Shown here one piece after another: positions 7,065 to 43,151 of a stretch of DNA of 43,275 nt. The stretch is taken from assembly GCF_001687335.1 (NCBI RefSeq), contig NZ_MAGO01000015.1:1-43275 (forward strand). The letters are read 5' to 3'. Source of the stretch: Dissulfuribacter thermophilus. GTDB taxonomy: Bacteria > Desulfobacterota > Dissulfuribacteria > Dissulfuribacterales > Dissulfuribacteraceae. The notes under the pieces are model-generated. The model was not told the DNA's origin, did not search any database, and was given only the letters and a program-made list of their open reading frames with translations. The first letter of the stretch is position 1, and each line of letters starts with the position of its first letter. The position numbers were made by a program, and so were the translations under genes.

Positions 7065-7136
7065 ACCTTACCTCCACCCTAATTCGATTCGGGCCTCTCC
7101 CTCCAAAGGAGAGAAAGACCCGAGTTTCTTGGAGCC

Positions 7137-8411: not shown

Positions 8412-8442
8412 AATCCTAACCCCTCCTTCTCTTTGTTTTTTG

Positions 8443-9075: not shown

Positions 9076-9106
9076 TATTTTGAACTCCTGTCCTATAACC
9101 TAAATT

Positions 9107-9130
9107 GGCCAGACCCAAGTAGGTCTGGCC
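9107..9130. other. Perfect 9-bp hairpin downstream of the octaheme cytochrome gene
   Basis: GGCCAGACC and GGTCTGGCC arms flank a six-base loop, 47-70 bases past the stop of the octaheme gene. A T-tract (CCTTTTTG) follows only on the plus strand, where no gene reads. On the minus strand the tail is AATTTAGG. It may stabilise or partly terminate the octaheme mRNA. Confidence 0.55.
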
Positions 9131-9176
9131 ACCTTTTTGTCATACCTTTTAGCACATTACTTCACTAATTAGATTT

Positions 9177-10802: not shown

Positions 10803-10908
10803 ACTTCTCCTCCTATCTCTTTTTTGGTCTGGAATTCATTAAAAGATTGACCAGTTATTTTTAATCATCCTTCACCTCATGCCTCTTCCCTCCCTTCCTG
10901 TTTTTCTA

Positions 10909-12078
10909 TTAAGAGGCCTCGGCCTCTGGCTTTGCCGGATGCCAAAGTGGAAAGATTTTTGAGAGTATGAAGAGTACCACCAGTGGAAGCGCGAGAATTA
11001 TTAGACCTGCTAGGAGCCCCTCCTTCCCCAAAAACTCCAGATCAAAGGAGGCATATCCACGACCACTTTTGGAAATTAACTGGCCACCAATTACAACGTT
11101 CCAACGCATCAATATCACCTGGAATAGGATCATGACTGAAACAAGTGAGGCAAAAAACTTGAGTGTGGGCGTGCTCACATTGGTAAGGGAAAGCCATGCC
11201 AACAACACGAATGGTATCACTGAAAAGACTCCCATTTGAAGCGTCCAGAAAGTAGTATAAAGAGGACCATTAAGGAGCCCTTCTACTATGTGCCAGTGCT
11301 CTACCCGTAAATATGCATGGACCCCTACATCCAAGAGCTCCATGGTCAAGTCGAGAATAAAGAAGCCCCAAAGGAACTTTACCAATGTTTTAATACAGTT
11401 AGCATCAGGCTCTTCTCCCTTAAACTTCATAATCAAGATATAGAGTAGGGTGATCCCTGCAATTCCGGATACACTAGCTGAAAGGAGGAACACCACTGGC
11501 ATAAGTGGAGTGAACCACCAGTGCACGGCCTTTACTCCACCAAAGATGAAACCAACATATCCATGGAGCGTACATGCCCATGGAATACCTATGGCTGCCA
11601 GGAATTTGATAACCTTTTTGTCTGCTTCACGAGATTGTGGAGTCACCTGAGTGACCCCAAAGGTAAGCAACCAGTATAGTTTTTTGAGAACCCCCTGAGT
11701 CCTATGATACATATCTACCAGGGTTTCTCTATAGACAAGCAAGATCTCCATGATAAGTAGCAGCCCGTATGAGCCATAGATGTAACCGAATCCTGCCATT
11801 GCCGACGTAGGACTCGGCGTGATCAACATCTTAAATGCCCTCTCTGGATGCCCAAGGTGGTTCAAAAGGGGCAGGGTACAACAGGTCCAGAAAGCAAAGG
11901 CAAAGACCAATGAGAAGCGCGATACAGGCTTAAGGGCCTTTATGTTAAATACGTGATATAGGGATGATACTATGAATGCCCCTGCAATAATCCCAGTTAT
12001 ATAGGGGTAAAGGACAATCATAAAGCTCCAGTGCACATGGTGCTCGTTTGGCAGTATAAATCCTGTTAATTCAGTCAT
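10909..12078 (-). CDS. nrfD: NrfD-type integral membrane quinol-interacting subunit
   Basis: Polytopic membrane protein of 389 aa with about nine hydrophobic helices, of the NrfD/PsrC family that exchanges electrons between membrane quinones and a periplasmic iron-sulfur partner. Conserved-looking pieces include the CTLPLLNHLGHPERAFKM loop and a histidine-rich amphipathic start. The ATG at 12078 overlaps the TGA of the upstream iron-sulfur gene (TGATG) with GGAGG seven bases before it. A GTG three bases earlier is in frame but too close to the ribosome-binding site. The 106-bp gap to the octaheme gene contains no clear terminator. Confidence 0.88.
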   Translation of the reverse strand: MTELTGFILPNEHHVHWSFMIVLYPYITGIIAGAFIVSSLYHVFNIKALKPVSRFSLVFAFAFWTCCTLPLLNHLGHPERAFKMLITPSPTSAMAGFGYIYGSYGLLLIMEILLVYRETLVDMYHRTQGVLKKLYWLLTFGVTQVTPQSREADKKVIKFLAAIGIPWACTLHGYVGFIFGGVKAVHWWFTPLMPVVFLLSASVSGIAGITLLYILIMKFKGEEPDANCIKTLVKFLWGFFILDLTMELLDVGVHAYLRVEHWHIVEGLLNGPLYTTFWTLQMGVFSVIPFVLLAWLSLTNVSTPTLKFFASLVSVMILFQVILMRWNVVIGGQLISKSGRGYASFDLEFLGKEGLLAGLIILALPLVVLFILSKIFPLWHPAKPEAEAS

Positions 12079-12911
12079 CACATCACCTCCTGGCGGGCGC
12101 CAAGATAGTAAAGATTGGGGTTGGTACCCATGTCTTTCTTTAAGACCGTGAGTATGTTTGGACTGTGTAAAATCTTATAGACCTCGGAGTTCTTATCATT
12201 CAGATCCCCAAACCTCCTTGCCTTTGTAGGACAGGCGTTAACACAGGCGGGCAAAAGTCCTCGTCTGACCCTATGGTAACACCAGGTGCATTTGTCAGAG
12301 GTGTGGCGCTCTGGATGGATGTAACGAACTCCGTATGGACATGCTTGAACGCAATAGGCACATCCTACACACTGCTCATAATCTATGAGGACAAATCCGT
12401 CTGGAGTCTGGAACGTAGCCCCAACCGGACATACCTGAACGCATGGGGGATCTTTACACATATTACACAGTTTGGGCACAAAGAATGCGTCTCTAATAGG
12501 CTTTTTTATGTCAGTCCTAGGCTGAAATCCATTGATGCCCCCATCAGGGGAATCCACGAAGACCTCCCCGTCTTCAGCAATTATGTATCTTTCGATCCAG
12601 GTTCGAGCAAAAGGATCTGGCACATTGTATTCATTCTTGTCAGCAACACAGCAGGAACCACAACCAATACACCGGTTTATATCCACTATGAAGGCAAAGC
12701 GCCTCTTGAACATGTCATATTCTTGTTCTCGTATCCCTGGAATCTGCTCAGGCGGCAACATGCCTGCTCCTGAGTCAATTACCATTAAAATCGTACCTGC
12801 TATTGCACCTCCAAGTACCTTCTTTATGAAAGAACGCCTATCCTTGTTTATAAGGTTCTTGGCCTCTTCCATACTGATCTCTTTTGGAACTTTAGGGGTT
12901 TTACTGGACAT
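12078..12911 (-). CDS. nrfC: NrfC-like Tat-exported protein with four [4Fe-4S] clusters
   Basis: Electron-transfer protein of 277 aa. It has a Tat-like signal (DRRSFIKK about 24-31, followed by a glycine/alanine hydrophobic run) and four cluster motifs starting CIGCGSC, CNMCKDPPC, CVGCAYC and CTWCYHR, as in NrfC, PsrB and related subunits. The frame is open to 13013, but that extension lies inside the tetraheme gene and lacks a signal. The ATG at 12911 has AAGGAGG upstream and overlaps the tetraheme stop by 11 bp, so it is chosen. With NrfD and the tetraheme cytochrome it makes a quinol-to-cytochrome relay. The pairing with the octaheme enzyme is inferred from gene order. Confidence 0.88.
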   Translation of the reverse strand: MSSKTPKVPKEISMEEAKNLINKDRRSFIKKVLGGAIAGTILMVIDSGAGMLPPEQIPGIREQEYDMFKRRFAFIVDINRCIGCGSCCVADKNEYNVPDPFARTWIERYIIAEDGEVFVDSPDGGINGFQPRTDIKKPIRDAFFVPKLCNMCKDPPCVQVCPVGATFQTPDGFVLIDYEQCVGCAYCVQACPYGVRYIHPERHTSDKCTWCYHRVRRGLLPACVNACPTKARRFGDLNDKNSEVYKILHSPNILTVLKKDMGTNPNLYYLGARQEVM

Positions 12912-13452
12912 TTTCACCCTCCTTGAGCATTGGGAACATCTTATTGGCCATATTGATATACTCGAGGGGTGCGTGTACGAGATGACACTGATTGCACAGA
13001 TGATCTGGCTCAACTTTCTGCTTTTTGAGATGATCTGGGTAGTAGACCGTTTTAATAACCTTGGGATCCCCTGGCCTGGACCTCACCGCCCTATCGTGAC
13101 ATCTCAAACACAACCTGTTGATCTCACTGCCCTTGTGCACCTTAAGGTAGCCTATGACCTTTCCATCTTTTACATGGTCAGCCAAGGGGCCATGACAAAA
13201 TTCACAGGAAACCGCACTGTGTTTACCCTTTGCATGGTATTCGAAATCCCACTCATGGCACTGCTTGCAGGAGGCATCAGTCTCATGCACCAATGGCCTG
13301 CTAATCTCTTCATCGATGTATGCTGCCCTATAATGGCCATAGCGCCCAAAGGTCCCAGGGGTAAAAACTATCTTTGCTATCACGACAATGGCGATCACCC
13401 CCAGCAGCACAAGGCCCATTCTCTTTAAATGAGTTTTTGATCCTGTTTGCAC
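12901..13452 (-). CDS. Membrane-anchored tetraheme cytochrome c
   Basis: Protein of 183 aa with one N-terminal membrane anchor (about 11-27, no obvious cleavage site) and a periplasmic part carrying four CxxCH sites (CKQCH, CEFCH, CLRCH, CNQCH) rich in extra histidines. The size resembles NrfH/NapC, but the spacing differs from canonical NapC. It is first in the operon, before nrfC- and nrfD-like genes, so it probably takes electrons from that module and passes them to the octaheme enzyme and perhaps NapM. GTG start at 13452 with GGAGG six bases upstream; no better ATG exists before the anchor. Confidence 0.82.
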   Translation of the reverse strand: MQTGSKTHLKRMGLVLLGVIAIVVIAKIVFTPGTFGRYGHYRAAYIDEEISRPLVHETDASCKQCHEWDFEYHAKGKHSAVSCEFCHGPLADHVKDGKVIGYLKVHKGSEINRLCLRCHDRAVRSRPGDPKVIKTVYYPDHLKKQKVEPDHLCNQCHLVHAPLEYINMANKMFPMLKEGENVQ

Positions 13453-14558: not shown

Positions 14559-17125
<2,567 letters not shown>

Positions 17126-17126
17126 C

Positions 17127-17153
17127 AAAAAAGCGGCCCATAAAGGGCCGCTT
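17127..17153 (-). terminator. Strong terminator after the 922-aa surface protein gene
   Basis: On the minus strand a GCGGCCC/GGGCCGC stem (plus two A-T pairs) with a five-base loop is followed directly by TTTTTT. It lies about 50 bases past the surface protein stop, and the T-run abuts the first possible start codon of the subtilase, leaving no space for a separate promoter. Confidence 0.9.
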
Positions 17154-17202: not shown

Positions 17203-19971
17203 TTACTCAACAGTTACCCTGTAAGCAGCACCCCTGAAGGTGGAGAAGTCTCCGCCTACTGCATAACCGTAGTAGATATCGTAACTACCTGGGAAGTTGC
17301 TGAGATCAATGCCATTAATACCTAAGTCGAAGCACTGCTCAGCACCAAGTGTTGCACTGGCGAAAGAAGGTATATCGCCACCCTGGTACAGATCCCAGGT
17401 TACCTGGCCGAAGAGACCCTGTGATGCAACGTAAAAATCGCTTCCTATAGCAATTGCTGCATAGAGATCGGCGCTCTGTCCCTGAGCATCGTCAGGTACG
17501 TTGAGGCACGGTGCAATAGTGACGTTTGTCACATCTGCTGGCTTCACCTCATTTGCAGCAGGATCGAGGTTTGCTGCCTCAACAGCATCCATCTTTGGAG
17601 AAGTGGCTGGAGGTGCTGGTGGAGCTGCGACTGCTTCTCTTGTTACAGTAAAGGTCTTTGAAGCAGTAACAGACCCGTCAGCACTGGTGAGTGTAATAGT
17701 GAATTCTCCGGTACTTTCACCTACGGCAATAGTCAGGACCTCTCGCCCAGGATTAGTTGTGAAGTCAACAAGTTGGCCTGAAGCATAGGCTCCACCGTAC
17801 AAACCAGTAATGGTTGGATTTACACTACCACTCCAAGAAATGGTTACACCTGGAGTATAAACATATCTCTTTCCACTTTGATCAAGACTCTCAATCTCTA
17901 CACCCACCTCAGCATTTACAGGTATTGCAGTCTGCTCAACATTGATAGCGAGATTCGTCAATGTTTTTGCACTTGGTACATCAACACTAATATCGTTTGC
18001 TGTAACACCTGGTTTCGTATATGCAAATGATAAGGTGTCAGTACCAGTGAATTTAGCTGGATCATAGGTGATAGTTACTACATCTCCAGTCTCACCGGCC
18101 TTAAGCACGCTATTTCCGCCTGCGATAGATACACTACCATTCTGAGAAGTTACAGATATAGTGCCTGCATTTGCAACGGTTATATTATTACCATATGGGT
18201 CTGTCATGCGGAGCTGGCTTTCGTTAAAGGTAGCCACGAAATTTGTTCCAGATGGAGTTGCCTTTAATGCAGTCACCTCTTCATTATGCCCATTTACTAA
18301 TTTCCCTGTGCTTGGACTTGCGGCAGTAATATCGCCGGTAGTGTCATTGCCTTGGTTGGCAACTGTTACTTCACCATATGCACCAAGACTATCTGCGATA
18401 ATATAGTATTCATCGCTGGCCACACTCAGTGTACCAGTAGCTTTCTGGAACAATGCTTCTATTGTAGAAGAGGCCTGAGCCAAAGAAACCTCTATGGTCT
18501 CTACTACCTGTCCTTTTACTACATGCTTTACCACGATAGTAGTTGCCTTGCTGGTTGAAACATACTCATCAGCTCCGGCTGCACTACCAGGTGCTACATA
18601 GGAACCATCTGCTGCAGTATTTGAAGTGGTATTTCCATCAAGAGCGACATCGAATGCTTTAAATGATACACCAGCGGAAACTGGTGCAGTCCAGGCGGAG
18701 TTCACTTGTGCAATGAGATTTCTGTCAACCACCTTGATAGCTAGTGGATCCGATGCCTGAATCGTTGCATCAGTTGGAATTGATGCTACAAGTGAAGTAG
18801 TACCTAACTTAAGCACCTCACCTGGTGCATTTCCCAATACATCTGTACCTTTGGAAGCGTTATTGACTATGCTAATACTAAGTGCGGTATCACTTACCAC
18901 AGAATTACTGTCCTTAAACTGAAGAGCAATAGAACTTCCAGTAGCATTTTTGGTTTTATTACCATATTTATCCAACAAATAAGCTGTGATGGTTGTTCCA
19001 GCGGCGTTTGTAGCATCGTTACTGATTACACTCTTCTCAGATGTGAGCATCAATTTTACGATTTCAGCTTTTGGATTGACAATTAGAGTATCATCGTCTG
19101 TGACATCCACAGAATCTCCTTCAAAACCAGACAATGTTGCCTTAATGTAATAGCAACCTGCTTCTGTCACAGTTGTTGGCACAGTGACATAAGCAACACC
19201 AGCACTCATTGTACCTTCAAAGGAATAAGTGTTAGAAGCAGCATTCAGCCCAGTATAAGTATCATAGCAGTTGGCCTTTGGATATAGAGTAACAGTTACA
19301 GTACCAGCGGCTGTTGTATCCACGGCGCCTGCATCATTATAGGCAACAACCTTAATCTGGCCACCAGCTGCTCCGGCAGTCATTACTCCGTCAATACCGC
19401 CTACGATGCTTGTATCAGAAACACCACTTAAGTCGGAAGCACTTCTGTTAAATGCATCCACGTCAATAGATGCTACTGAGCTAGATACTGCATTAACAGT
19501 AACAGTCTTGGTAGTGGTGTCTATAGTATTGTAAGTAACACCACCCTGCTCATTGAAAAACTTTTCCTGCAAGGTAACGGTTATAGTGTCAACTCCGCTG
19601 ACAGTTGCAGGATAAGAAATGTTAACCTTACCTACGCCTTGAGTTAAGGTAACATATTTAACACTAGCGGCAAAATTTCCGGCAGCTGGGTTAGCACCAC
19701 TGGTACCACCAACAACATTCACGGTCCCCAACTGACTGGTAACTACTGCCATTATAGTAGCACCGAACTGCTCGCCGTAGAGATCCACCTCTCCGTTGGC
19801 ATTTAAACCCAAGACGGTCATATTAATGGTCTCACCGGCATTGACCTCTGTTTTATCCAAAATAAACATTCCCTTAACAGTTGAGGTTTTTGCCAATGCC
19901 CCACCTACCATTGCACTCAATACGAAGATAAGCGCAATAATTGGGGTAATAACTTTTCCTCTTGCCTTCAT
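17203..19971 (-). CDS. Large secreted surface protein with repeated Ig-like beta domains
   Basis: Exported protein of 922 aa with a signal peptide (cleavage near GALAK, residue 28). Most of it is Thr/Val/Ser/Ala-rich beta sandwich repeats resembling bacterial Ig-like (Big/invasin-type) domains, for example VNAGETINMTVLGLNANGEV near the start and VTVTLQEK and ITVTSADG-like strand ends throughout. A Pro/Ala hinge (EAVAAPPAPPATSP) precedes a C-terminal domain of about 135 aa with ADLYAAIAIGSDFYV, a type often seen in deltaproteobacterial surface proteins. There are few cysteines and no LPXTG or SLH motif. GGAGG precedes the ATG. The long upstream region, strong terminator and composition suggest an abundant surface or S-layer-like protein; this is inference. 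Confidence 0.8.
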   Translation of the reverse strand: MKARGKVITPIIALIFVLSAMVGGALAKTSTVKGMFILDKTEVNAGETINMTVLGLNANGEVDLYGEQFGATIMAVVTSQLGTVNVVGGTSGANPAAGNFAASVKYVTLTQGVGKVNISYPATVSGVDTITVTLQEKFFNEQGGVTYNTIDTTTKTVTVNAVSSSVASIDVDAFNRSASDLSGVSDTSIVGGIDGVMTAGAAGGQIKVVAYNDAGAVDTTAAGTVTVTLYPKANCYDTYTGLNAASNTYSFEGTMSAGVAYVTVPTTVTEAGCYYIKATLSGFEGDSVDVTDDDTLIVNPKAEIVKLMLTSEKSVISNDATNAAGTTITAYLLDKYGNKTKNATGSSIALQFKDSNSVVSDTALSISIVNNASKGTDVLGNAPGEVLKLGTTSLVASIPTDATIQASDPLAIKVVDRNLIAQVNSAWTAPVSAGVSFKAFDVALDGNTTSNTAADGSYVAPGSAAGADEYVSTSKATTIVVKHVVKGQVVETIEVSLAQASSTIEALFQKATGTLSVASDEYYIIADSLGAYGEVTVANQGNDTTGDITAASPSTGKLVNGHNEEVTALKATPSGTNFVATFNESQLRMTDPYGNNITVANAGTISVTSQNGSVSIAGGNSVLKAGETGDVVTITYDPAKFTGTDTLSFAYTKPGVTANDISVDVPSAKTLTNLAINVEQTAIPVNAEVGVEIESLDQSGKRYVYTPGVTISWSGSVNPTITGLYGGAYASGQLVDFTTNPGREVLTIAVGESTGEFTITLTSADGSVTASKTFTVTREAVAAPPAPPATSPKMDAVEAANLDPAANEVKPADVTNVTIAPCLNVPDDAQGQSADLYAAIAIGSDFYVASQGLFGQVTWDLYQGGDIPSFASATLGAEQCFDLGINGIDLSNFPGSYDIYYGYAVGGDFSTFRGAAYRVTVE

Positions 19972-31723: not shown

Positions 31724-33454
31724 CTATCGAGGCATATCTACAATCTCAAAGGTCGTCTCATTTAAGAACTTACTAAACCTTGGATCTACTAAATCTTCTC
31801 CCACTGGTACAGCATAGGAATAGAGGGTGTAATTGCCACTCTCAGACCACCTTGGAATCTCAAGATCCAATATAGTACACAGCCCCTTCCATGGTTGAAT
31901 ATCCCTCGCATCCTCAATGGCATAACCGGAATTTAGGTCATCTAGCACCCATAGTCCACCGTCGGGCAATAGGATGGCAATAAATATGTTAAACCCCTTT
32001 GGAAGTGTATTTAGAGTAACGAAAAGTCGTTCTCCAGGATGATATTGTCTTTTGGAGATGTCAACCAGCACAGTATTCGATTTGGCATTAGATAAAGCCT
32101 TTGTACAGGGATCAAAGTCATCTAGGTCCTGAAGAGGGCCACAGTCCTTTTGGGCAAAATAGCCATCGTGGTCAAAATCAAGGCATTTCGGCGCATTGAG
32201 ACCCCAGGTATATGCACCCAGTGGATCTACTAATCCATAGCCGTAGCTATTGTCAGGTCCTTTTTCTCCAAGGTCTTTGGCTGTGATCCTAAGCGACGCC
32301 TCTATACTATAGAGATCCATTTCAGGGAAAGCATCTTTCATAAGGGCGATCAATCCAGTAACCTCGGCTGCTGCAAAGGAGGTGCCTGTAACAATGGTTG
32401 TGGCCTCATCAAAAATGCCCCCAAAGGTAATATCTGTTGTGTAGAGTCCGGCTCCAGGAGCAACAAGATCTGGGTATACCTTTAGGCCGCATGCACTTGG
32501 ACCACGAGAACTAAAAATAGATAGCTCGCCTCTCTCTTCTATTGCCCCAACAGAAATGACTCCGTTATAATTTGCCGGACTTTCGGAAGTAAATAAAGAT
32601 GGACCTCCATTGCCTGCTGGTGTGACGACTGCTATGCCTAACTCTTTAAGTTTAGATATGTCCTCTGAAAATTCTTGTATGCACTCGTCTGGTCTTTCTG
32701 AAATACCCCAAGACATGTTAACTATGTCTGGAGAGTCTTCAGTCTCAGGATCTCCGTCAGGATCAACAAGCCATTGAAGTGCACGGTGTATAATACTCAA
32801 TAAGGTAAAACCTTGATTGTCAAAAATTTTGGCTGCAATCCATTGCGCTCCAGGTGCAATCCCAAGACCTCCATTAATGCTCTGTTCACTTCCGCCTAAA
32901 ATGATACCCATTACCTGAGTACCGTGACCTATTGAGTCAGTAGGTAATAATGTAGAATCAAAAAAATCAAACCAACTATTTGCACCTCCACGCCATTTTC
33001 CTTTGAGGTATTTATGATCAATATCAACCCCTGTATCGAGAACACAGACCACAACGCCTCTGCCAGTAATTCCCATTCTCCTTAATGATTCCACGTTTAA
33101 TACGCTTAAGTTCCACTGACTTCTCAAAATACTATCTGTCGGGGCCTCGTTGAGCCTAAATTTTTTATCGATCCTGACGGAGGCAACCTCTGGATGATTG
33201 GATAGTGATTCAATATCTCTTTTGTCAACTGTGGCTGAAAAGCCATTTATTATCCAAAGGGGATGAACATCTTTTAATCTAGGCCAATCTTTTTTTAAGA
33301 CTAACCTCTGCCCCCTTTTGACCGCTATATAACCCTTTTTTAGCCGAACAATTACTATTACGGATTGTTCAGACAAGGCCGATGTAGGCGAATCCATCAG
33401 AAGAACAGAGCCCAAAAAACAAACAGCGATTGTCAGTATGTAAGTTCTACTCAC
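31724..33454 (-). CDS. Secreted subtilisin-like serine protease (S8) with I9-type propeptide
   Basis: Exported protease of 576 aa. A signal peptide (about 1-28) and an inhibitor-I9-like propeptide (about 30-100) precede the S8 domain with Asp140 (VCVLDTGVD), His177 (SIGHGTQVMG), Asn282 (TPAGNGG) and Ser359 (VTGTSFAAA). A C-terminal part of about 150 aa includes a Cys-containing LDFDHDGYFAQKDCGPL calcium-like loop and a beta-rich tail. The ATG overlaps the stop of the upstream lipoprotein gene by four bases. Like the first subtilase, it lies downstream of secreted surface proteins and may mature them. A weak hairpin with TTTTTTT on the minus strand lies just past its stop (about 31688-31718). 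Confidence 0.88.
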   Translation of the reverse strand: MSRTYILTIAVCFLGSVLLMDSPTSALSEQSVIVIVRLKKGYIAVKRGQRLVLKKDWPRLKDVHPLWIINGFSATVDKRDIESLSNHPEVASVRIDKKFRLNEAPTDSILRSQWNLSVLNVESLRRMGITGRGVVVCVLDTGVDIDHKYLKGKWRGGANSWFDFFDSTLLPTDSIGHGTQVMGIILGGSEQSINGGLGIAPGAQWIAAKIFDNQGFTLLSIIHRALQWLVDPDGDPETEDSPDIVNMSWGISERPDECIQEFSEDISKLKELGIAVVTPAGNGGPSLFTSESPANYNGVISVGAIEERGELSIFSSRGPSACGLKVYPDLVAPGAGLYTTDITFGGIFDEATTIVTGTSFAAAEVTGLIALMKDAFPEMDLYSIEASLRITAKDLGEKGPDNSYGYGLVDPLGAYTWGLNAPKCLDFDHDGYFAQKDCGPLQDLDDFDPCTKALSNAKSNTVLVDISKRQYHPGERLFVTLNTLPKGFNIFIAILLPDGGLWVLDDLNSGYAIEDARDIQPWKGLCTILDLEIPRWSESGNYTLYSYAVPVGEDLVDPRFSKFLNETTFEIVDMPR

Positions 33455-33882
33455 CTTACTTTAAGGTGTTCCAATTTAAGGTCCCCCATTACTACAGTCA
33501 CCTTTTGCCCCGCGGCAATAAACCGACCAGGGTTTGCAAAGAGTACAAAATACGTCCTCCCTGCTATGGGATTTTCTGTTGTCGAACGTAGCGGACCTAC
33601 CTTCGGAGGATTTGGTACAAAGACCCGTCTACCAGTGGCCTCATGGATAACGTAGACTTTGGCACCTTTTTTCAAAAGATATTTGGCCTTTTTTGGATCA
33701 ATGACCTTATATCTAAAATCAAGCATGTAGCCAGCAGAAGAAAGATATATTCCCTGCACCTGAATCCCCCAATCTTGGGCCAGAGACTCATAAGATGGGC
33801 CCCTTGGGTGTTTTGAAGCACAGGAGGTTAAAAAGACCAAACAGACCAAAGAAATAAATGTAATTGTTTTCATCTTAACCAA
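33451..33882 (-). CDS. Small lipoprotein, unknown function
   Basis: Protein of 143 aa with a signal peptide ending in the lipobox LTSC (about residue 21), so it is probably lipid-anchored. The mature part is beta-rich (YLSSAGYMLDFRYKVIDPKKA, AKVYVIHEATGRRVFVPNPP) and I do not recognise a named family. It is translationally coupled to the subtilase gene (ATGA overlap). 246 bp of repeat-containing DNA separate it from the multicopper oxidase genes. A role with the protease is suggested only by coupling. Confidence 0.7.
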   Translation of the reverse strand: MVKMKTITFISLVCLVFLTSCASKHPRGPSYESLAQDWGIQVQGIYLSSAGYMLDFRYKVIDPKKAKYLLKKGAKVYVIHEATGRRVFVPNPPKVGPLRSTTENPIAGRTYFVLFANPGRFIAAGQKVTVVMGDLKLEHLKVR

Positions 33883-33900: not shown

Positions 33901-34011
33901 TGATGGCAACATTGCCATCACAAAAATCGATTAGGTGTATATGGTACACGGCTATTGGCAGTAGGCCTTCAGTCTAAAAACTGCATGCCCACTGTGTACA
34001 TGCCGTGTACC
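33901..34011. repeat. Hairpin and inverted repeat upstream of the lipoprotein gene
   Basis: TGATGGCA/TGCCATCA forms an 8-bp perfect stem with a four-base loop at 33901-33920. GGTACACGG at 33943-33951 and CCGTGTACC at 34003-34011 form a second, wide inverted repeat with AGGCC/GGCCT nearby. No T-tract follows on the minus strand, so these are not obvious terminators. Confidence 0.55.
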
Positions 34012-34038
34012 GTAGGGCCTGTGACATTTTTTTATAAA

Positions 34039-34123
34039 ACCTAAATCCTGCAATTGGCGAGTTTGCCCAATATGCCAGACGCGAGGGATTAAGGCATACT
34101 CTTTTGCCGTGCAGGATTTAGGT
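34039..34123. repeat. 85-bp element with 14-bp perfect terminal inverted repeats
   Basis: ACCTAAATCCTGCA at 34039-34052 and its exact complement at 34110-34123 bound an element holding TATGCC/GGCATA inner arms. Just inside the left end, AAACTCGCCAATTG on the minus strand matches dispersed repeat copy B at 24479. It lies six bases past the stop of the third multicopper oxidase gene, so it may also act as a 3' hairpin for that transcript. Confidence 0.7.
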
Positions 34124-34128: not shown

Positions 34129-35148
34129 TTAAGGGATCTGATTCGGTTGCACCTCTAGGTAGGCCAACATACCTCCAGGGAATACATTAGCGTTTGTAAG
34201 CCTAAGTCTCTTATCATAGACAGGATACCTTTTAACAGCCTTCGGATTCCAGACTACATCTTTTGTCTTCCCCGCTGGTAAAAAGACATCGTATTTTTCC
34301 CTGGGATAGGTATAAAGATTTCCGTCTTCTGAGACTACTGAAAAGTAGGCATCAAGGATGGTAGGGGTATGGGTCTCGAGCCCTGCATTCATAAAACGAA
34401 TCAACACTGTCTCATTATTGGTGATACTATGATCAAACACAGGCTTTGCATCAGGATATGGTTCCCCATTTATGAGAAAATACTTTGGCCTATAATTTAT
34501 AGTGCTTGGATATGACTTAGTACCGTAGGTACCCATTGCTACTGCATTGTGCAGTGCTGGATCAATCTCACTGTAAAACAAGATTACTTCATTATCGTAA
34601 GTAATGCCTTTATATACCTCGCCAGAGGCATAATCCTTTTTCAAAGCTCCATATAGACCCATCTGCACTTGGACTGCCACATGAGTGCCACTTTGATAAA
34701 TATAGCTTCCTTCTTTTACGTTATTCCAAGTATATGTCCCTGTGGCTCCAGGCCCAGTTTCATGAGTAAAAGATCGAACTCGTTTACGGCCCTTTGAATC
34801 AGTAAAAAATTCCGGGCTCAAACTCATTGGCTGGCCTGGTATGATGATTGAAGTAGAGACACTAAGGTCATTTCTAATATGTATTGTGAGACTAGTATCC
34901 CCTGGAGGGATGGTAATCACTGGCCCTGGACTGGTAGGTATTTCCCCTCCGTCTGTCCCAAGATTCTTGTCTGAATCCTCTGCATACCCCCACATAGTTA
35001 CATTTGAACCATCTGGCATCTGTTTAATGTATGATTTTGCCACAAGATATACGTCCAATGCAAAAGAAGGCGACGCCCAATGTATTGCCCCTATTAAAAA
35101 CACAGTAAAGGTGATAAGTGGCATGATTTTATTATATCTTTTATTCAT
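34129..35148 (-). CDS. Multicopper-oxidase-like protein 3, copper ligands lost
   Basis: Exported protein of 339 aa with a signal peptide (cleavage near SFAL, residue 30) and two cupredoxin domains homologous to the two proteins encoded just upstream. Where protein 1 has HWHG and HCH, this one has IIIPGQPM and Tyr-Gln152-Ser-Gly. Where protein 2 has HPFHHHG and HSH, it has HTPTILDA and TNANVFPG. It therefore seems unable to bind the type 1 or trinuclear copper and is best explained as a structural subunit of a heteromeric complex. GGAGG precedes the ATG, and the upstream gene ends 15 bp before it. Confidence 0.8.
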   Translation of the reverse strand: MNKRYNKIMPLITFTVFLIGAIHWASPSFALDVYLVAKSYIKQMPDGSNVTMWGYAEDSDKNLGTDGGEIPTSPGPVITIPPGDTSLTIHIRNDLSVSTSIIIPGQPMSLSPEFFTDSKGRKRVRSFTHETGPGATGTYTWNNVKEGSYIYQSGTHVAVQVQMGLYGALKKDYASGEVYKGITYDNEVILFYSEIDPALHNAVAMGTYGTKSYPSTINYRPKYFLINGEPYPDAKPVFDHSITNNETVLIRFMNAGLETHTPTILDAYFSVVSEDGNLYTYPREKYDVFLPAGKTKDVVWNPKAVKRYPVYDKRLRLTNANVFPGGMLAYLEVQPNQIP

Positions 35149-35163
35149 AATAATCCTCCTTGA

Positions 35164-36441
35164 TCATGGTATCGGTGCACCAGGAGGCTCAATAACCATC
35201 ATAGTCATCATACCACCTGGAAAGATGTTGTTATTGACCATTTCCTTTTCTGTATGAGAATGCCACATATAAAAGAGGCCTCCATAGACGTTGAGTCCAC
35301 CTTCACCAGGAGGAAGGTCTCCTACAGATCCAAGAAATGGGCTCCCGCTCCAAAATCCGCCATAGGTCAGGTTTAGTGGATCGGGTAGCTTTACTGGGAA
35401 TGGCTTTCCATGATCTGGAGCATACTCATGGGGAGCAAGTGGATCTGAGGGTTTGTGACCATAGACATCCCAACCAAGTCCCTTTCCTGTCCATTCAAAG
35501 ATCGAATCTACAGTCTCTCCTGGAATGGATTTTATTGTAAATACCGTCTGAGCAAGGTCTGCTCCTACACCTGGTGAACTTTTTAGCAGTCTACCATCTT
35601 TTGCAATTATCCTAGAGTGATTCCCATGATGATGGAATGGATGTAGATCTCTCCCTCCATTTATCACTCGCATTAATAGCTTCTCACCTGGATGCATTCT
35701 AGGCATACAGTTGTATGGCTGATGTGGTAACCATGGTACTTTTGCAGGGAACATAGTATCTGGAGCGGCGCGGCCATTAATCATCCAATAGACCGGCCTG
35801 TATGTAGTATTGTCTATCTCGTCCATTGTCCCAAACTCAATGAGACGATGAATCACTGGATCCATCTCTGACAGTAAAAAGAGATACTCTCTATCGTAGG
35901 CAGAGTCTGGATGGTTATATGCAGTTGGATTCGCTGGATCAAACCCCTGAGGTCTCACAATAATCGCACCAATAAGTCCCATCTCCAGCTGAAGTTCTGG
36001 TCTAGTCCCACTATGATAGTAGTAGGTACCAGGCTGATCAGCTGTAAATGTGTAGGTAACAGAGGTGACACCGTCAGGCGGGGCCTCGTTGGTTAGAAGG
36101 CCTGGCACCCCACCCGTTGCCTTTACTTCATGACCAGGGAATACTATGGATACGTTTCCATAGATACTGGGAAGCTGATTCGTTAGGGTTATAGTAATGT
36201 TGTCTCCTTGATTGACTATTAAAGTGGGGCCTGGATACTGCATAGGGCCATTGTCAATGGCATAGCCCCACATGAGAATGGATTGACCGTCTGGCATACT
36301 GATATGTCCCTGTTTTACGGTAAAACTAAAACTGGTCTCCTTTATGCCGCTGATGACTGCTTTACAAGGATTTGCCCCTATGGATATCAAGGACATACAA
36401 GCAATTATCAAAATGGATAGATTTTTTACCTTTTTATTCAT
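35164..36441 (-). CDS. Multicopper-oxidase-like protein 2, trinuclear half-site (domain 2)
   Basis: Exported protein of 425 aa with a signal peptide (about 1-28). Domain 1 lacks ligands (IVFPGHEV, YYYHSGTRP). Domain 2 has His267-Pro-Phe-His270-His271-His272-Gly, the HPxHxHG motif, and His394-Ser395-His396, an HxH motif where canonical enzymes have HCH. The absence of the cysteine means no type 1 copper here. These histidines are exactly the trinuclear ligands missing from protein 1, suggesting a shared site. A long insert (about 300-385, rich in Gly, Pro and His) separates the two motifs. AGGAGG precedes the ATG; the upstream gene ends 24 bp before it. Confidence 0.85.
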   Translation of the reverse strand: MNKKVKNLSILIIACMSLISIGANPCKAVISGIKETSFSFTVKQGHISMPDGQSILMWGYAIDNGPMQYPGPTLIVNQGDNITITLTNQLPSIYGNVSIVFPGHEVKATGGVPGLLTNEAPPDGVTSVTYTFTADQPGTYYYHSGTRPELQLEMGLIGAIIVRPQGFDPANPTAYNHPDSAYDREYLFLLSEMDPVIHRLIEFGTMDEIDNTTYRPVYWMINGRAAPDTMFPAKVPWLPHQPYNCMPRMHPGEKLLMRVINGGRDLHPFHHHGNHSRIIAKDGRLLKSSPGVGADLAQTVFTIKSIPGETVDSIFEWTGKGLGWDVYGHKPSDPLAPHEYAPDHGKPFPVKLPDPLNLTYGGFWSGSPFLGSVGDLPPGEGGLNVYGGLFYMWHSHTEKEMVNNNIFPGGMMTMMVIEPPGAPIP

Positions 36442-36465
36442 TGATTCCTCCTAATAAAACATCCC

Positions 36466-37677
36466 TTACTGGATATGTATCTCAGTCATCATGCCGCCAA
36501 AATCTTCGTCATTGTTACTCAGGTAATTCAAATTAGAGGTATAGAGAAAGTATGTGCCAGGCTGCAGCCCAGCAGTATCCAGTATTACGTCCACCGATTC
36601 TCCTCCACCAAGAGTGACGGAGTTTGTCATGTAATACATGGCCCTTCCATCTGGGCCTTTGAGTAATCGGGCATCCTCTCCCACCACCTTCATAGGAATA
36701 CCAAGAGAGAAGAGGGTGTAGAATCGAGTGACATTCAGGTTGCTGATCCTGAGCAGTACTTTTTGCCCTACCTTAGCAGTTATGAGGGCACTAAGCGGCT
36801 GAGATATCTTTCCACCATTTTCAGCGGGAGGAGTCAAGGGATTTGGATCCACTGTATCTGGATAGCCCCTACCATTTAACATGGGATATGTATCTTCCAT
36901 CGCTGCAAAAGGTAGGGGTTGAACGTTCATACTGGCATCGTGAAACCCAGGATCAAATGATCCTATCTGGATGACATAATCAATATCGTAATAAGTAGAG
37001 CCATCACCATCATTGTATGCATAGTGATATCCAGTATGATGTATAAAACCATTTAAATTCGTGCCATCTGGTAAATCATTTTGAGCAGGTAACACATAGA
37101 GATTCCCCAGCATCCCCATCTGCATGTGCTCTGTGGCCTCAACATGGCAGTGATACATATAAGTTCCTGGTTGAACCACATGGTAATAATAGGTAAAACT
37201 TGCCATCATGTTTACAGAGAGGGAGGCGCTTGGAACTCCATCAAATACGGATGCTGCCTCTGGGAAACCGTGCCAGTGAACTGTATGGGGGTCTGACAGA
37301 TCAGGCCTTAGGGCCATTCCCACATTTGAAAGGGTTAGATAAAATTCATCCCCTTCTTTTAATACTATTGTGGGAGCAGGGAAAGTGGCCCCAAGCATAC
37401 CCACACTCATCCAATTTTCAGGTTTGACTCCAGTCAAATCCACAAAGCTGAAGATGTACTGGAGCCTTCCATCTGCCATCTTCACAAAGCCATCGCCTGC
37501 ACCTAGATGCATACAGACAGCTCGTGGATGGGCTGGATCAGGCTGATCTATAACTGCATCTCCATCAATATCTCCAGGGCATTGCACAACAAACTCGGCA
37601 TTCCCCGTTGAAACCAGGCCCATTAAAAAGATAACTGTGGCTGCGTAGCCAAATAAAAATCTCAGTTTTTTGTTCAT
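36466..37677 (-). CDS. Multicopper-oxidase-like protein 1, type 1 copper and trinuclear half-site (domain 1)
   Basis: Exported protein of 403 aa with a signal peptide (about 1-27) followed by a DIDGDAVID calcium-like loop between cysteines 33 and 55. Domain 1 has His134-Trp-His136-Gly and, about 40 residues on, His176-Cys177-His178 with His184 and Met189, a complete type 1 copper set with adjoining trinuclear ligands. Domain 2 has lost the HPxHxHG motif (RFYTLFSLGIPMKVV). It is thus half of a 'type C' two-domain oxidase; the other half is on protein 2. The next gene begins 24 bp downstream. Substrate is unknown; related large oxidases act on Mn(II), Fe(II) or Cu(I). Confidence 0.87.
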   Translation of the reverse strand: MNKKLRFLFGYAATVIFLMGLVSTGNAEFVVQCPGDIDGDAVIDQPDPAHPRAVCMHLGAGDGFVKMADGRLQYIFSFVDLTGVKPENWMSVGMLGATFPAPTIVLKEGDEFYLTLSNVGMALRPDLSDPHTVHWHGFPEAASVFDGVPSASLSVNMMASFTYYYHVVQPGTYMYHCHVEATEHMQMGMLGNLYVLPAQNDLPDGTNLNGFIHHTGYHYAYNDGDGSTYYDIDYVIQIGSFDPGFHDASMNVQPLPFAAMEDTYPMLNGRGYPDTVDPNPLTPPAENGGKISQPLSALITAKVGQKVLLRISNLNVTRFYTLFSLGIPMKVVGEDARLLKGPDGRAMYYMTNSVTLGGGESVDVILDTAGLQPGTYFLYTSNLNYLSNNDEDFGGMMTEIHIQ

Positions 37678-37737: not shown

Positions 37738-40700
37738 TTATGGCCAAAGTTCATCAAAACCAATATCAACTCCTATGTTGTTGGGCCGCTCCTCAGTATC
37801 AAAGTCCGTTGACAGGGCAAAGCGGGTAATATCATTCAAATATTGATGCCATAGGGGTATGTCAGTTCCGGCACCTACCGCAGGCGAGCCTGGCTGTATG
37901 TGATAGTCTCCCAAGGTTTTTCCGCCCTTTAGAGTGGGATGCCATAGGGTTAGGGGAGCAAAACGCACATCTATAAAGTTGCCCCCCTCGTCAACTGCGA
38001 CAGAGGTTGCCATTTGCACCTGATTCTCACCATAAACATATTGACTTACGCCTCCCGGACTACCATTTACGTATTCTCTTATAAAAAGAGGATCTGCGCT
38101 GATGTTGCTTGGATCAAGGCCTGTAACGTCTGTCAAAAGACACCAGAAAGGCGACAGCATTGCCGGGAATGATGCACCCATTACCCCCAAATCCCAATAC
38201 ACAGGAGATTGTGTGGCCATATCTGGGACAAGCCCACCGATTCCGCCATTTAGTGCAACATCCCAATGAAAGGACCTATTGTGCCAGATGATGTTATTTA
38301 AGAGAATTGGATTAGAAAAATCCCTGAACCACTGAATCATAGGATCATTTCTGTCAAATGCTGAAGCAAGATTGAGGCTATGTGCATACGAAACAATTCC
38401 TGCAGGCCTAAATTCAAAATTCAATAGTGTATTTTGGGCAGTCCTTGCAGTACCAGTGCTGTCATTATTGGCTATGGTGTTATTTATGATATTTACCTTG
38501 ACGCTGTCTTGCATTGAAATAGCGCCACCAGCATTGCCGGCCACATTATTCACAATCACATTATTTACGATATTAACCTCATACCACTTATTGAAATCAT
38601 TGGGATTTTGGGCGACATCTTCACCATTGGCAAATTGGATACGGATTCCACCTCCATCGCCTGCGCCAGCGAGGTTGCCCTGTATGAGGTTGTTGGCCAC
38701 AAGGACCGAACCAGATCCTAGACTTAATTTCCCCTTATTGGGATTGGGAGCCAAACCAGCAATGAGGATTCCGCCACCTGATACGTCCTGTCCCTGGTTG
38801 AATGACTGATTAAACGCAATGACATTTCTATATATAATGCCACCAGCGCTGATTCCATAATGGGCAATGCCTCCTCCATGACCTGCTGAATAGTTGCCAC
38901 AGATGAAATTGGCAGTAATAAGGTAATTTTTCGTACCTGCGCAGATGGTTATTCCGCCGCCAGCCCCCAAAATTCCGCCGTTTTCAGCAATATGATTATT
39001 GTGTATGTATATGGAATTATTAGTGCCATCAATGTAGAGTTCAGTTCCCTCGGCCTCTATTGCATTTTCATCATTCCCCTGTTGTGGATCAACTAAGGTA
39101 TTTCTACCTATTAAATATGGATGACCAACCCTTATGCCGCCTCCATAAAATCCATAATTATTTACTATTCTGTTATTTGAAATCTCTAGGCCATGGGCAT
39201 AGCCATTCACAAAGATACCTCCACCACTGTCTGAACCAGTAATGGTAAAGCCATCAATACGGGCATGTCCGTTTCCAACAGGGAAAGCGCCTCTCTTGGC
39301 AACAACAGTAATGGGGGCCCCTTCCTCTGTGCCAAGGAGTGCTGGCTCAATTCCCACAATATTTGCCTCCTGACCAGGCATGAGGTCCACCGTCCTCGTA
39401 TCAACTAAATTTCTTATCTTGTCACGCCAGACCTGTAACTTTTCCGATGGAGCCTTCACAGCATTTATTATTGTCGAACCAGCTCCCCATCCCTGGAGAC
39501 GCACTGGTTTCCACATGATCACAGCTTCTTCATAATTTCCAGGAGCAACGAGAATTAGGTCTCCGGGCTGTGCCAAATCAATGGCGTCCTGGATCGGAGT
39601 TGCACTTGGATCAGTAGTTGGAGAAACATGAATTACGTTTGCCTGACCAACTGTCACAGTTACTCCTAAAAGGGTGCTGAGATCATTGTCACCTCGAGTG
39701 ACCACAAGCTCACCGCTCTCAGTGCCGGGGGCCACAGTCCCAGTAATCACGTCAGGAGTCCAGACAACATTTTCAAGGGGAGTGCCTCCAATGGTTACAG
39801 TGCCTGGGATAGAGCCAAAACTGAAGTCCCGAGTTGTAGTCTTTGGCTTGATCCCGTTTGGGCCATCGTAGTCAGGGTTGGGGACCTCAACAGAACCCAC
39901 AGAGACTATTGTTAGTGTCTCACCTGGCCCAGTTACATAAGGTCCACCTTGAGGCCCACTTACAGAATAGATCTTGGGCATGCCATCTGGGACCTCACAA
40001 TCTAGCATATCCTGATTTGGCCCTGCAAAAGCAGCCACTGGGACAACAGGTGTATCCAGGTATGTTGTGGATCCAGGCATATATTGGAATGTGTAACAGA
40101 ATTGACTGTACTGCCTCTGGAAAAATGGATCAGTAATAAATTCAGGTGAATTTGGAACATTCGGATCCCAATTGGGGTTGGGGATAGGGCCTGGAGAATT
40201 CAAGCAAACAGTGAGCATATTAGGAGAATAACCGCTTGGCATAGGGAGATTTGCTGTAAAGGTTGAAGGTATCAGGGCATTGTATCTCCCCCACTCGTCT
40301 GAATAAGTCCTCGCTATCTCCCTTCCTGTCCAGTCCCTTATAGATACTGGAAGCCAAGGTGGAGCATACTTTTCCCCAAAATTTGGTGAATTTGGATCAA
40401 ACTCATTGGCAAAATCATCGAGAATAAAACCGACGAACTGGCCAGCTATTGGCACCTGTGTAAACATGAAAAAGTCTGCGGCTGAATTCTGACCATCTGA
40501 CAATCTTATCTGTTTTCTATCACAAAGAGGCCGCGTCTCGCCTGCAAAGGGGGCATCCAGCGTTGGAAACAGAGACATCTTTAAAGGCACTGTATGAGGA
40601 TCTCCTACACACACTGGCGGTAATGCCTCTGTAGCTGGTATATATGTTTCTCCAAAATCTACGTTTTTATCCTCTTCCTTCAATAGTTCGTAACCTGGTG

Positions 40701-42903
40701 GAGGAACTGCCTCAACGATATATATGCCTTGCTGAAGGCCATCAAAAGCATATCCACCGTCAAAGACCCCTAGCCTTATCTGATTGAAATTCCTTAGCCC
40801 ATCAAAACAATCCGTAGAAACACCATGAGCAGAAAAGGGCTCCCCCTGGCAACCAGTGGGCACACTATCGTCCCAACTGTCAGTGGTTGTATATTTTATG
40901 GCATCTCCTAGATCAAACTTACCGTCTCCGTTTCTATCTATATCTTCAGGCCCCTTTGCACCGCCGTTGGCCCACCCGAACGGGTAGTTGTCAACATCTG
41001 CCAAAGTCACCTTGCCATCTTTATTTATGTCATCAATAACACCGTCCCCGTCTAAATCTTCATATAGATTTACCTGAACTCTAGGAATGCCTGGCTCCCA
41101 TGGCTCAGCAATAGCATATCTCGGATCATTCTCAGCCCGCGTTACTGCATATATGACCATTCCAGAAATGCCGCCATTTTCGCCTGGAGCATATTCTGCC
41201 TTTCCCCATTGAATGACATTGGTCTGCCCCATATAAAGCTGAAATGCCTGGGTTAAAACCGGACCTGTCTCTGTTCGGGCAAGATTGTTTCCTGTATTAG
41301 GGTTAATCAAAGGGGTGCCATCTGGAGCAGATTGTGGCTGAGGATTGAGCTTGTCACCTGAGGGCATTTGCCATCCATTGTCCTGAGGTATCTCGCCCCC
41401 TGCATCCACAATCGCTGTAACACCTGTTGCCTTAAATCTTCCAAAGTCTACTTCTGCAACAAGCCAGCTGAAGAATGGAAAGACCTCCTCAAAGGGAGCT
41501 TCCCCAAATATGTCGGTTGTCATGGCTTGGTAGATACTCCCATCCCTAAAACGTATATTTATATTCTGTTGAGGGATTCCTACGTCATCTAAAGTGGGAT
41601 CTTTACAGCTTGGAGTAATGCAGTCTCTGAATCCATTCTGATTGTGATCATAAAAGACTACGTTTTCGAGACTGCCAAACCAACGAAATAGCCTTACGGT
41701 GTTATAAGTTGGATCTCCATCTCCATCAATATCTACAGGACCGCCACCTGGAGGTACTGTAACCTGGGTTAGGCCAAATATAGCATCAAGATTCTCATCC
41801 CATATTACCAGTTGATATGTCCCAGGTGGGATATTCTTAATCTCAAAGTTACTGTTTTCGTCGCAGGCCCCAACATAAAGGGCTTCACCTCTACCAACAG
41901 TAAGATCATTTAACGCCACCCAACACTGGGGGACAGGCGGTCCGTCATAAAAAGTATAAATAGGTGGCCTCGAATTATGGGTAAATACTACGTGACCAGC
42001 TATTGTTCCATTAGCCCCCGCACCTGTAGATGCAGGCAACTTATTAACTTCCTTAACAAAACCAATAAATACATGAGGGCCAGGGGGACCAAATTCCATA
42101 AAATACTCGGGTTCATTTGCCTTAACCCACGCATCAATGGTCTTTGTACCTTCGATTGTAGACGTCTGATGCCATCCCTGACCTAACGGCGGCACCACAA
42201 TTATTCCGTATTTACCAGGGGCAATATTCTTTATATTGGCATATCCATCTGGCCCAGTTTTAATGATTCCAGTCCCCATTTTTTTTACTGAACCATCAGG
42301 ATTGTAAGTGGTGCCCAGTGGATTGCCAAAGACATCCTGCATGACCATCCCCCCTGAGATGCCAAATTTACCTCCTGCTTCAAACAACTGAACTACGAAA
42401 CCCTCAAGTCCTACCTCACCTGGAATATCTGGTATGTTGTTTACAGGCTTTGAATCGTCAAAGACAAAGACTGTTATTTGAGCAGTCGGTATCGGCAACT
42501 TATTCACCTTGATTGTAACCTGCTGCTGACCTGGCCTGACTGGGGCTCCATTCATGCTGTAACCAGAATCGGGTAATACTGAAACAAAGTAATATTTATT
42601 TGGATCTGGGAGAGTGATATTTGCAGCTTGAGCCTCATCTCCAGTAGATACCACAGGGGCATTACTTGAATGGAAATGAACAGACAGAGTGTTGCCATCT
42701 GGTTTACCTGGAATCACGTGATAGGTAGTATCTTCCTGAAGAAGCCATCTAAAATTAGTTACAGGACTACCGTTTGCATCCGTAACCTTCAATGTAAAGG
42801 CATGTCCATAAGAATGGATCCCCATTACTAACAGGGTTAAGACAATAAAAAACCCCCCCGCCCTAACCAGGCGTGAATAGCGAAAAACATTGAAAAAATT
42901 CAT
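37738..42903 (-). CDS. Giant secreted protein: beta domains, calcium loops, and C-terminal parallel beta-helix
   Basis: Exported protein of 1721 aa. The N-terminal signal anchor is about residues 15-35. It is followed by several carboxypeptidase-regulatory/SdrD B-like domains (for example NFEIKNIPPGTYQLVIWDE), paired EF-hand or dockerin-like loops at about 610-665 (DLDGDGVIDDINKDGK and DIDRNGDGKFDLGD), a TIG-like region (about 975-1075), and a right-handed beta-helix of the pectate-lyase/NosD type (about 1095-1680; IQDAIDLAQPGDLILVAPGNY, then many NNxIxxN rungs). It may be a surface or matrix scaffold. The frame extends to TTG 42918, but ATG 42903 has GGAG six bases upstream. It is first in the operon before the three oxidases. 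Confidence 0.85.
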   Translation of the reverse strand: MNFFNVFRYSRLVRAGGFFIVLTLLVMGIHSYGHAFTLKVTDANGSPVTNFRWLLQEDTTYHVIPGKPDGNTLSVHFHSSNAPVVSTGDEAQAANITLPDPNKYYFVSVLPDSGYSMNGAPVRPGQQQVTIKVNKLPIPTAQITVFVFDDSKPVNNIPDIPGEVGLEGFVVQLFEAGGKFGISGGMVMQDVFGNPLGTTYNPDGSVKKMGTGIIKTGPDGYANIKNIAPGKYGIIVVPPLGQGWHQTSTIEGTKTIDAWVKANEPEYFMEFGPPGPHVFIGFVKEVNKLPASTGAGANGTIAGHVVFTHNSRPPIYTFYDGPPVPQCWVALNDLTVGRGEALYVGACDENSNFEIKNIPPGTYQLVIWDENLDAIFGLTQVTVPPGGGPVDIDGDGDPTYNTVRLFRWFGSLENVVFYDHNQNGFRDCITPSCKDPTLDDVGIPQQNINIRFRDGSIYQAMTTDIFGEAPFEEVFPFFSWLVAEVDFGRFKATGVTAIVDAGGEIPQDNGWQMPSGDKLNPQPQSAPDGTPLINPNTGNNLARTETGPVLTQAFQLYMGQTNVIQWGKAEYAPGENGGISGMVIYAVTRAENDPRYAIAEPWEPGIPRVQVNLYEDLDGDGVIDDINKDGKVTLADVDNYPFGWANGGAKGPEDIDRNGDGKFDLGDAIKYTTTDSWDDSVPTGCQGEPFSAHGVSTDCFDGLRNFNQIRLGVFDGGYAFDGLQQGIYIVEAVPPPGYELLKEEDKNVDFGETYIPATEALPPVCVGDPHTVPLKMSLFPTLDAPFAGETRPLCDRKQIRLSDGQNSAADFFMFTQVPIAGQFVGFILDDFANEFDPNSPNFGEKYAPPWLPVSIRDWTGREIARTYSDEWGRYNALIPSTFTANLPMPSGYSPNMLTVCLNSPGPIPNPNWDPNVPNSPEFITDPFFQRQYSQFCYTFQYMPGSTTYLDTPVVPVAAFAGPNQDMLDCEVPDGMPKIYSVSGPQGGPYVTGPGETLTIVSVGSVEVPNPDYDGPNGIKPKTTTRDFSFGSIPGTVTIGGTPLENVVWTPDVITGTVAPGTESGELVVTRGDNDLSTLLGVTVTVGQANVIHVSPTTDPSATPIQDAIDLAQPGDLILVAPGNYEEAVIMWKPVRLQGWGAGSTIINAVKAPSEKLQVWRDKIRNLVDTRTVDLMPGQEANIVGIEPALLGTEEGAPITVVAKRGAFPVGNGHARIDGFTITGSDSGGGIFVNGYAHGLEISNNRIVNNYGFYGGGIRVGHPYLIGRNTLVDPQQGNDENAIEAEGTELYIDGTNNSIYIHNNHIAENGGILGAGGGITICAGTKNYLITANFICGNYSAGHGGGIAHYGISAGGIIYRNVIAFNQSFNQGQDVSGGGILIAGLAPNPNKGKLSLGSGSVLVANNLIQGNLAGAGDGGGIRIQFANGEDVAQNPNDFNKWYEVNIVNNVIVNNVAGNAGGAISMQDSVKVNIINNTIANNDSTGTARTAQNTLLNFEFRPAGIVSYAHSLNLASAFDRNDPMIQWFRDFSNPILLNNIIWHNRSFHWDVALNGGIGGLVPDMATQSPVYWDLGVMGASFPAMLSPFWCLLTDVTGLDPSNISADPLFIREYVNGSPGGVSQYVYGENQVQMATSVAVDEGGNFIDVRFAPLTLWHPTLKGGKTLGDYHIQPGSPAVGAGTDIPLWHQYLNDITRFALSTDFDTEERPNNIGVDIGFDELWP

Positions 42904-43151
42904 ATACCACTCCATCAATATGTTGGATCATTTCATGAATTCATCCGTTGCACAGATGAGTCTTCATGATTGATGTTTTTTTAAAATGGGAAATTTCCAC
43001 CCAAGAACCTAGGTAGTAAGAACCTCCATATACACCACCCCCCCCTTTAAAAACGACTAAAAATATTAGTTGGTTAGTTGAATAAAATTTTTTATTTTAT
43101 TTTTTTAAAAAACAAACCCTACGACCAGAACAAATTTGACTTTATAAATTT

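Follow-up and report, generated by a model that had tools for sequence, protein, structure and literature searches.

The contig NZ_MAGO01000015.1 of Dissulfuribacter thermophilus – the 43,275-nucleotide stretch analysed here, referred to below as the window – encodes three consecutive exported proteins of two cupredoxin domains each, P1, P2 and P3, which together probably make up a hetero-oligomeric extracellular multicopper oxidase (MCO) that descends from a homotrimeric two-domain oxidase of type C, closed into a ring by P3 and held at the cell surface. Domain 1 of P1 and domain 2 of P2 jointly hold eight trinuclear histidines and one type-1 copper site, neither protein completes the set by itself, and the existence of an active site split between P1 and P2 is therefore, as far as their sequences can tell, close to certain.

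The three open reading frames run head to tail on the minus strand in one shared reading frame, with 24 and 15 bp between neighbouring genes and a ribosome site resembling AGGAGG before every start codon. By inspection, each product begins with an apparent Sec signal peptide, and all three match Pfam Cu-oxidase families above the curated cut-offs. Coordinates, signal peptides and family matches thus agree with an earlier interpretation of the same DNA made without database searches (the sequence-only reading), which had described three consecutive exported two-cupredoxin proteins. P1 also contains, at residues 33–55 (37513–37581), a conserved stretch CPxDxDGDxVxDxxDxAxPxxVC, which resembles a dockerin or calcium-binding loop and is closed by two cysteines.

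The copper ligands are divided among the three proteins as that reading had proposed – P1 domain 1, P2 domain 2 and nowhere in P3 – and its motifs stand as written, except that its list of P1 ligands had overlooked H131, the first ligand of the type-1 copper. The type-1 site (H131, C177, H184 and M189) is complete in domain 1 of P1, which also has four trinuclear histidines, H134, H136, H176 and H178, of which the latter two lie with C177, H184 and M189 in the second motif, HCHVEATEHMQMGM; domain 2 has no trinuclear histidine. The four such residues of P2 (H270, H272, H394 and H396) are all in domain 2, the second pair in the context HSHTEKE, and domain 1 has none. P3 has no HxH pair at either site and no ligand set. 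Because the proteins are homologous, their alignment rows stack on one another in MAFFT, and where the ligands would align in P1 domain 2, in P2 domain 1 and in either domain of P3, there are other residues, with only scattered histidines. Instead of the eight trinuclear ligands per subunit that characterise a type C oxidase, there are thus four in P1, four in P2 and none in P3; the type C position of the type-1 copper, in the N-terminal domain, is found in P1, and P2 and P3 are without it. Homotrimers of P1 or of P2 with a full site are out, each protein having only half of the ligands. A NirK-like role, in which a mononuclear type-2 copper is bound by two histidines of domain 1 and one of domain 2, is contradicted by the eight conserved trinuclear-type histidines spread over P1 and P2.

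In two-domain oxidases, the trinuclear ligands come from two protomers, and type C is defined by a type-1 copper in domain 1 (PMC13151041). Among solved structures, 3g5w, the Nitrosomonas europaea blue copper oxidase, is the best relative of both P1 (E 1.8e-22) and P2 (E 9e-17). Its domain 1 (HTIHWHG and HCHVNVNEHVTMRGM) corresponds ligand for ligand to P1, and its domain 2 (HAIHTHG, HDH and GGIMT) to P2 (HPFHHHG, HSH and GGMMT), so that the halves that 3g5w unites on a single chain are found in the trio on two genes. With type C enzymes (3g5w and the metagenomic 2zwn), the trio shares two cupredoxin domains per chain, a type-1 copper in domain 1 and the motifs HxxHxHG/HCHxxxxEHxxxGM and HxxHxH/HxH. 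However, a type C oxidase is the product of one gene with all the ligands, its three identical subunits forming three sites, each trinuclear centre lying between neighbouring subunits of the homotrimer, whereas in the trio two genes share the ligands and a third homologue has none. Since the nearest solved relatives are homotrimers whose trinuclear centres form between subunits, the site can be completed only at a P1:P2 hetero-interface. A fold model of P2 alone (predicted local distance difference test, pLDDT, 66.6; predicted template modelling score, pTM, 0.71) aligns to two-domain copper enzymes with Z scores of 22–24 over about 250–266 residues, including the nitrite reductase NirK 4kns (Z 23.6), 3g5w (Z 22.8, 258 residues) and 9cck (Z 22.6).

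The sequence-only reading had suggested a search for the trio, with its ligand partition conserved, in other genomes, and this search yielded 52 loci – all fetched trio loci, whose stretches carry the labels L006 and so on, plus the window – with invariant ligands and a constant gene order. All three genes are present, in the order P1-P2-P3 and on one strand, in 48 of the 52, the remaining four being cut by contig ends; in no locus are P1, P2 and P3 fused to one another, and P3 occupies its place between P2 and a lipoprotein gene in 48/48 uncut loci. In P1, H131, H134, H136, H176, C177, H178, H184 and M189 are invariant (49/49); in P2, the same holds for H267, H270 and H272 (51/51, one row ending at a contig end), for H394-S395-H396 and for E398 and E400 (each 52/52), and the one locus with the variant motif HPFHPHS retains all three histidines. 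Only four pairs of rows among the trio loci exceed 90% identity, and the hosts belong to at least five phyla (Thermodesulfobacteriota, Myxococcota, Verrucomicrobiota, Pseudomonadota and CSSED10-310). Seven loci came from scanning named genomes with P2, among them those of Desulfuromonas metagenome-assembled genomes, CSSED10-310, Myxococcales, Verrucomicrobia and Burkholderiaceae. Whole-genome searches found matches in 18 of 395 genomes of the window's phylum and in 24 of 277 of the class of L006 – two overlapping lists, with the same contig and coordinates for several matches (e.g. G263 = G520, G070 = G641), which suggests that the window's host shares its phylum with Desulfuromonas – as well as strong P2 matches (E < 1e-100) in 7 of 399 genomes of the order of L010; a few of the matches at the looser cut-off are ordinary oxidases or two-gene pairs (see below) and not the trio. 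A 513-residue open reading frame from the window's phylum (L024) is oxidase-like, with the odd motif set HFSHNHP, HSMHLHG and HDH.

A second, two-gene form of the split was found in six Burkholderiales loci (L153–L157 and L159), which carry tandem pairs of two-domain genes (e.g. L156:6166–8286). The first gene of the pair has a Tat-like leader and, in domain 2, motifs of the types HxxHxH and HLH (the former appearing as NAVHCHG in L155), with nothing trinuclear in domain 1; in the second, domain 1 carries HTIHHHG/HCHxNTxLHxEMGM and domain 2 carries no such motif. In L156 and L159, CusB-like and RND-pump (AcrB family) genes, checked against Pfam, come next after the pair. Like the trio, the pairs have one gene with the domain 1 site and another with the domain 2 half-site; unlike the trio, they have the Tat-like signal on the upstream gene, a copper-efflux context, no scaffold protein (the large surface protein described below) and no P3. 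They are apparently a second split-site oxidase, at work in copper resistance. Looser and more distant two-gene pairs, partitioned in a similar way, occur in other genomic settings (L134:6085–9062 and L158:5707–7667).

In a tree built with the ligand columns masked, P1, P2 and P3 form one clade each, with bootstrap values of 100, and P2, P3 and the pair-A proteins are split from P1, pair-B proteins and ordinary two-domain oxidases (support 93/87). The groupings of P2 with P3 as sisters (57/27) and of P1 with pair B (54/37) have low support in the same tree; the value of 99/96 that P2 with P3 attains when the ligand columns are left in is not to be relied on. Since each of the three proteins is a single clade, the three paralogues and their partition are older than their spread over the phyla, and, whether by descent or by transfer, the set has moved as one unit.

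The following mechanism can be proposed. P1 domain 1 would provide the type-1 copper, with C177 as the point of electron entry from the substrate, along with four of the eight trinuclear histidines, and P2 domain 2 would give the remaining four across the subunit interface; the reduction of O2 would therefore be confined to the contact between P1 and P2, electrons passing from the substrate through C177 to the trinuclear centre at that interface and on to O2. P3 would most likely be structural, filling the third place of the ring, with its inner faces meeting the ligand-free P1 domain 2 and P2 domain 1, so that a 1:1:1 trimer would have one active site and four coppers, in a ring order (P2-P1-P3) unlike the gene order. 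We infer the formation of the P1/P2 hetero-interface, the 1:1:1 stoichiometry and the surface location; the obligate division of a single type-1/trinuclear site between P1 domain 1 and P2 domain 2, as first suggested by the sequence-only reading, is supported by the partition and gene order preserved across the 52 loci. The scaffold and a small lipoprotein would hold the ring at the cell surface, and a subtilase may process its parts.

The genes for these last three proteins belong, by comparison of the window's proteins with relatives' loci, to a larger conserved unit that consists of scaffold, P1, P2, P3, lipoprotein and subtilase (Table 1). Several fusions within it are observed: of scaffold with P1 in two verrucomicrobial copies (L009 and L113), of P3 with scaffold in L008, L151 and L152, and of the lipoprotein with the C-terminus of P3 in L007; they link scaffold, P1, P3 and lipoprotein to one another. 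The same set is present in four Burkholderiales loci (L147–L150). A Pfam check finds a SCO1/SenC gene in L149, followed there by a MofC-like gene; the MofC-like gene after the set matches cytochrome c in L147 and periplasmic binding proteins in both L147 and L149. In the window, no SCO1 or MofC-like gene adjoins the set. P3 and the lipoprotein gene are separated by a perfect 13-bp inverted repeat, CCTAAATCCTGCA/TGCAGGATTTAGG (34110–34122 and 34040–34052), beyond which lies a second one, GGTACACGGC/GCCGTGTACC (34002–34011 and 33943–33952); these repeats (33943–34122) are a possible mRNA structure or small mobile element. Elsewhere in the window, a second subtilase (15611–17128) has about 30% identity to the subtilases of relatives' sets and stands beside a 922-residue protein (17203–19971) with no Pfam match at E 1e-4.

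Table 1. Coordinates of the trio, its copper-ligand motifs and the neighbouring genes of the conserved unit in the window.
Feature	Position	Strand	Remarks
Scaffold, 1726-residue surface protein	37738–42918	−	SdrD_B, polysaccharide-lyase-type fn3_3, beta-helix and choice-of-anchor-Q-like regions; position immediately upstream of P1 conserved
P1, exported two-cupredoxin protein, 403 residues	36466–37677	−	Domain 1 with the type-1 site and one trinuclear half; domain 2 ligand-free
P1 HTVHWHG: H131 (type-1), H134/H136 (trinuclear)	37270–37287	−	Invariant, 49/49; aligns with HTIHWHG of 3g5w
P1 H176-C177-H178...H184...M189	37111–37152	−	Invariant, 49/49; aligns with HCHVNVNEHVTMRGM of 3g5w
P2, exported two-cupredoxin protein, 425 residues	35164–36441	−	Other trinuclear half in domain 2; domain 1 ligand-free
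P2 H267, H270, H272, motif HPFHHH(G)	35626–35643	−	51/51 rows spanning the stretch
P2 H394-S395-H396	35254–35262	−	52/52; Ser at the would-be type-1 Cys position
P3, exported two-cupredoxin protein, 339 residues	34129–35148	−	Without copper ligands; presumed third ring member
Small putative lipoprotein	33451–33882	−	FLTSCASK lipobox; conserved after P3
Subtilase (peptidase S8)	31724–33454	−	Conserved last gene of the set

A cluster of this layout is already on record. He et al. (2017) described three tandem extracellular MCO genes in Sideroxydans lithotrophicus ES-1, accompanied by genes for a MofC-like protein and a copper chaperone (PMC5566968), and Keffer et al. (2025) reported that three cupredoxin proteins of this organism, Slit_1816-1818, rise in magnetite cultures; their genes lie beside SCO1/SenC and a cytochrome, two of them have canonical MCO motifs, and the third has no MCO motifs and carries adhesin and polysaccharide-lyase-like domains (PMC12016527). 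The trio likewise consists of three neighbouring cupredoxin genes, of which the third alone has no MCO motifs. The layout of Slit_1812-1818, SCO1/SenC and MofC-like cytochrome included, matches that of L147–L149, and its large third protein resembles the P3-scaffold fusions of L151 and L152. The main texts of both papers make no mention of a split active site or a heteromer for this cluster, and nothing relevant on a hetero-oligomeric two-domain oxidase was found in the open-access literature searched. The earlier statement that no described enzyme is organised in this way thus has to give way as regards the gene cluster and holds, within those main texts, for the split site and the heteromer.

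As to the substrate, which is the least certain point of the proposal, we favour a reduced metal as the electron donor, with Fe(II) as the first candidate because an iron oxidiser on magnetite shows raised levels, in its proteome, of proteins from a cluster with this layout. Apart from the trio, the minus strand of the window has a respiratory gene set at 2375–13452 that encodes a molybdopterin oxidoreductase, NrfD, Fe-S proteins, multihaem cytochromes (8 and 4 CxxCH motifs) and an Alginate_exp protein resembling a porin, and may represent a redox conduit through the outer membrane.

A 1:1:1 ring of P1, P2 and P3 is, in our judgement, a reasonably likely arrangement, and several points weigh against it or against other parts of the proposal. 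The two-gene sets show the same partition without a third gene; a P3-like subunit is therefore not needed in every such enzyme and 2:1 rings are possible, making these sets the best argument that P3 may be inessential for catalysis. P3, which often has extra C-terminal domains, might serve as an anchor instead of taking a place in the ring. An AlphaFold model of the linked trio – one frame read through the stops, 1182 residues, from a shallow alignment – reached a pLDDT of only 45.5 and a pTM of 0.34, and bears neither way on the trimer. In the window's host, a cytochrome bd oxidase and no haem-copper oxidase were found; the organism may therefore see little O2, and the electron acceptor may be something other than O2. 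Lastly, the homology of Slit_1816-1818 to the trio is putative, being based on gene order, neighbours and motifs, although we take theirs to be the same kind of cluster.

Alternatively, P1 and P2 might form the active interface in a two-protein ring (2:1 or 1:2) or a dimer, with P3 as an accessory or anchor outside it. The two-gene sets speak for this possibility, as do the length of the C-terminal surface domains that P3 often carries and its fusion to scaffold or lipoprotein in some genomes; however, P3 is a full two-domain homologue, kept in every uncut locus, and an accessory protein need not retain both cupredoxin domains, so that we consider this alternative unlikely, if worth keeping in mind. 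Much more doubtful is the idea that there is no trinuclear centre at all, P1 being a stand-alone type-1 electron carrier and P2 binding or delivering copper separately. The complete type-1 site on P1 alone and the SCO1-like copper chaperones near the trio in some relatives would suit it, yet H134, H136, H176 and H178 would be useless to a type-1 carrier and are nonetheless invariant in 49 P1 proteins, the four P2 histidines are invariant too, and the two groups correspond to the two halves of the trinuclear site in 3g5w. Relatives of multicopper oxidases have commonly lost the ligands of one domain, and the trio might on that account be taken for decaying or mis-annotated ordinary oxidases partitioned by chance loss, but the identical, complementary partition in 52 loci, with gene order and clades kept across at least five phyla, excludes chance or decay. 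We lean, with some reserve, towards an obligate 1:1:1 heterotrimer with a dead third subunit that would oxidise metals or minerals at the cell surface, and that has a sister two-gene form in copper-efflux operons.

The proposed heteromer invites comparison with six-domain MCOs (ceruloplasmin and MnxG-like enzymes), with which it would share six cupredoxin domains and one surviving trinuclear centre of three possible. These enzymes are, however, single chains with type-1 copper in even-numbered domains – domains 2, 4 and 6 in ceruloplasmin, domain 2 in prokaryotic six-domain oxidases – and a trinuclear centre between domains 1/6 or 2/3 (PMC3600357), whereas the trio is encoded by three genes with their own starts and stops and has its type-1 copper in P1 domain 1. 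The sequence-only reading had regarded the trio as an intermediate between homotrimeric and six-domain oxidases; the type-1 copper in an odd domain argues against this, as does the ring order P2-P1-P3, which a gene-order split of a ceruloplasmin-like chain would not give, and we regard the trio as a separate way of breaking the symmetry of a homotrimer. The extracellular OmpB/MofA MCOs share with it the extracellular location, the surface domains and, in some trio loci, the MofC-like and SCO1 neighbours, but each is a single long chain (PMC5566968), and they did not turn up as relatives of the trio in the searches made here.

The two-domain MCOs that we found described are all homotrimers with three equal sites. 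What appears new in the trio is the split site, with its probable assembly from two gene products, the layout of the gene cluster being already partly on record from Sideroxydans. If the proposal is true, a single site per ring, built from two gene products and accompanied by a dead subunit, would represent symmetry breaking without gene fusion, and would offer biochemists single-site trimers in which to study trinuclear chemistry. It would also provide a concrete structure for a so far unexplained cupredoxin cluster whose products rise when an iron oxidiser is on magnetite – a type of cluster that is widespread in further phyla.

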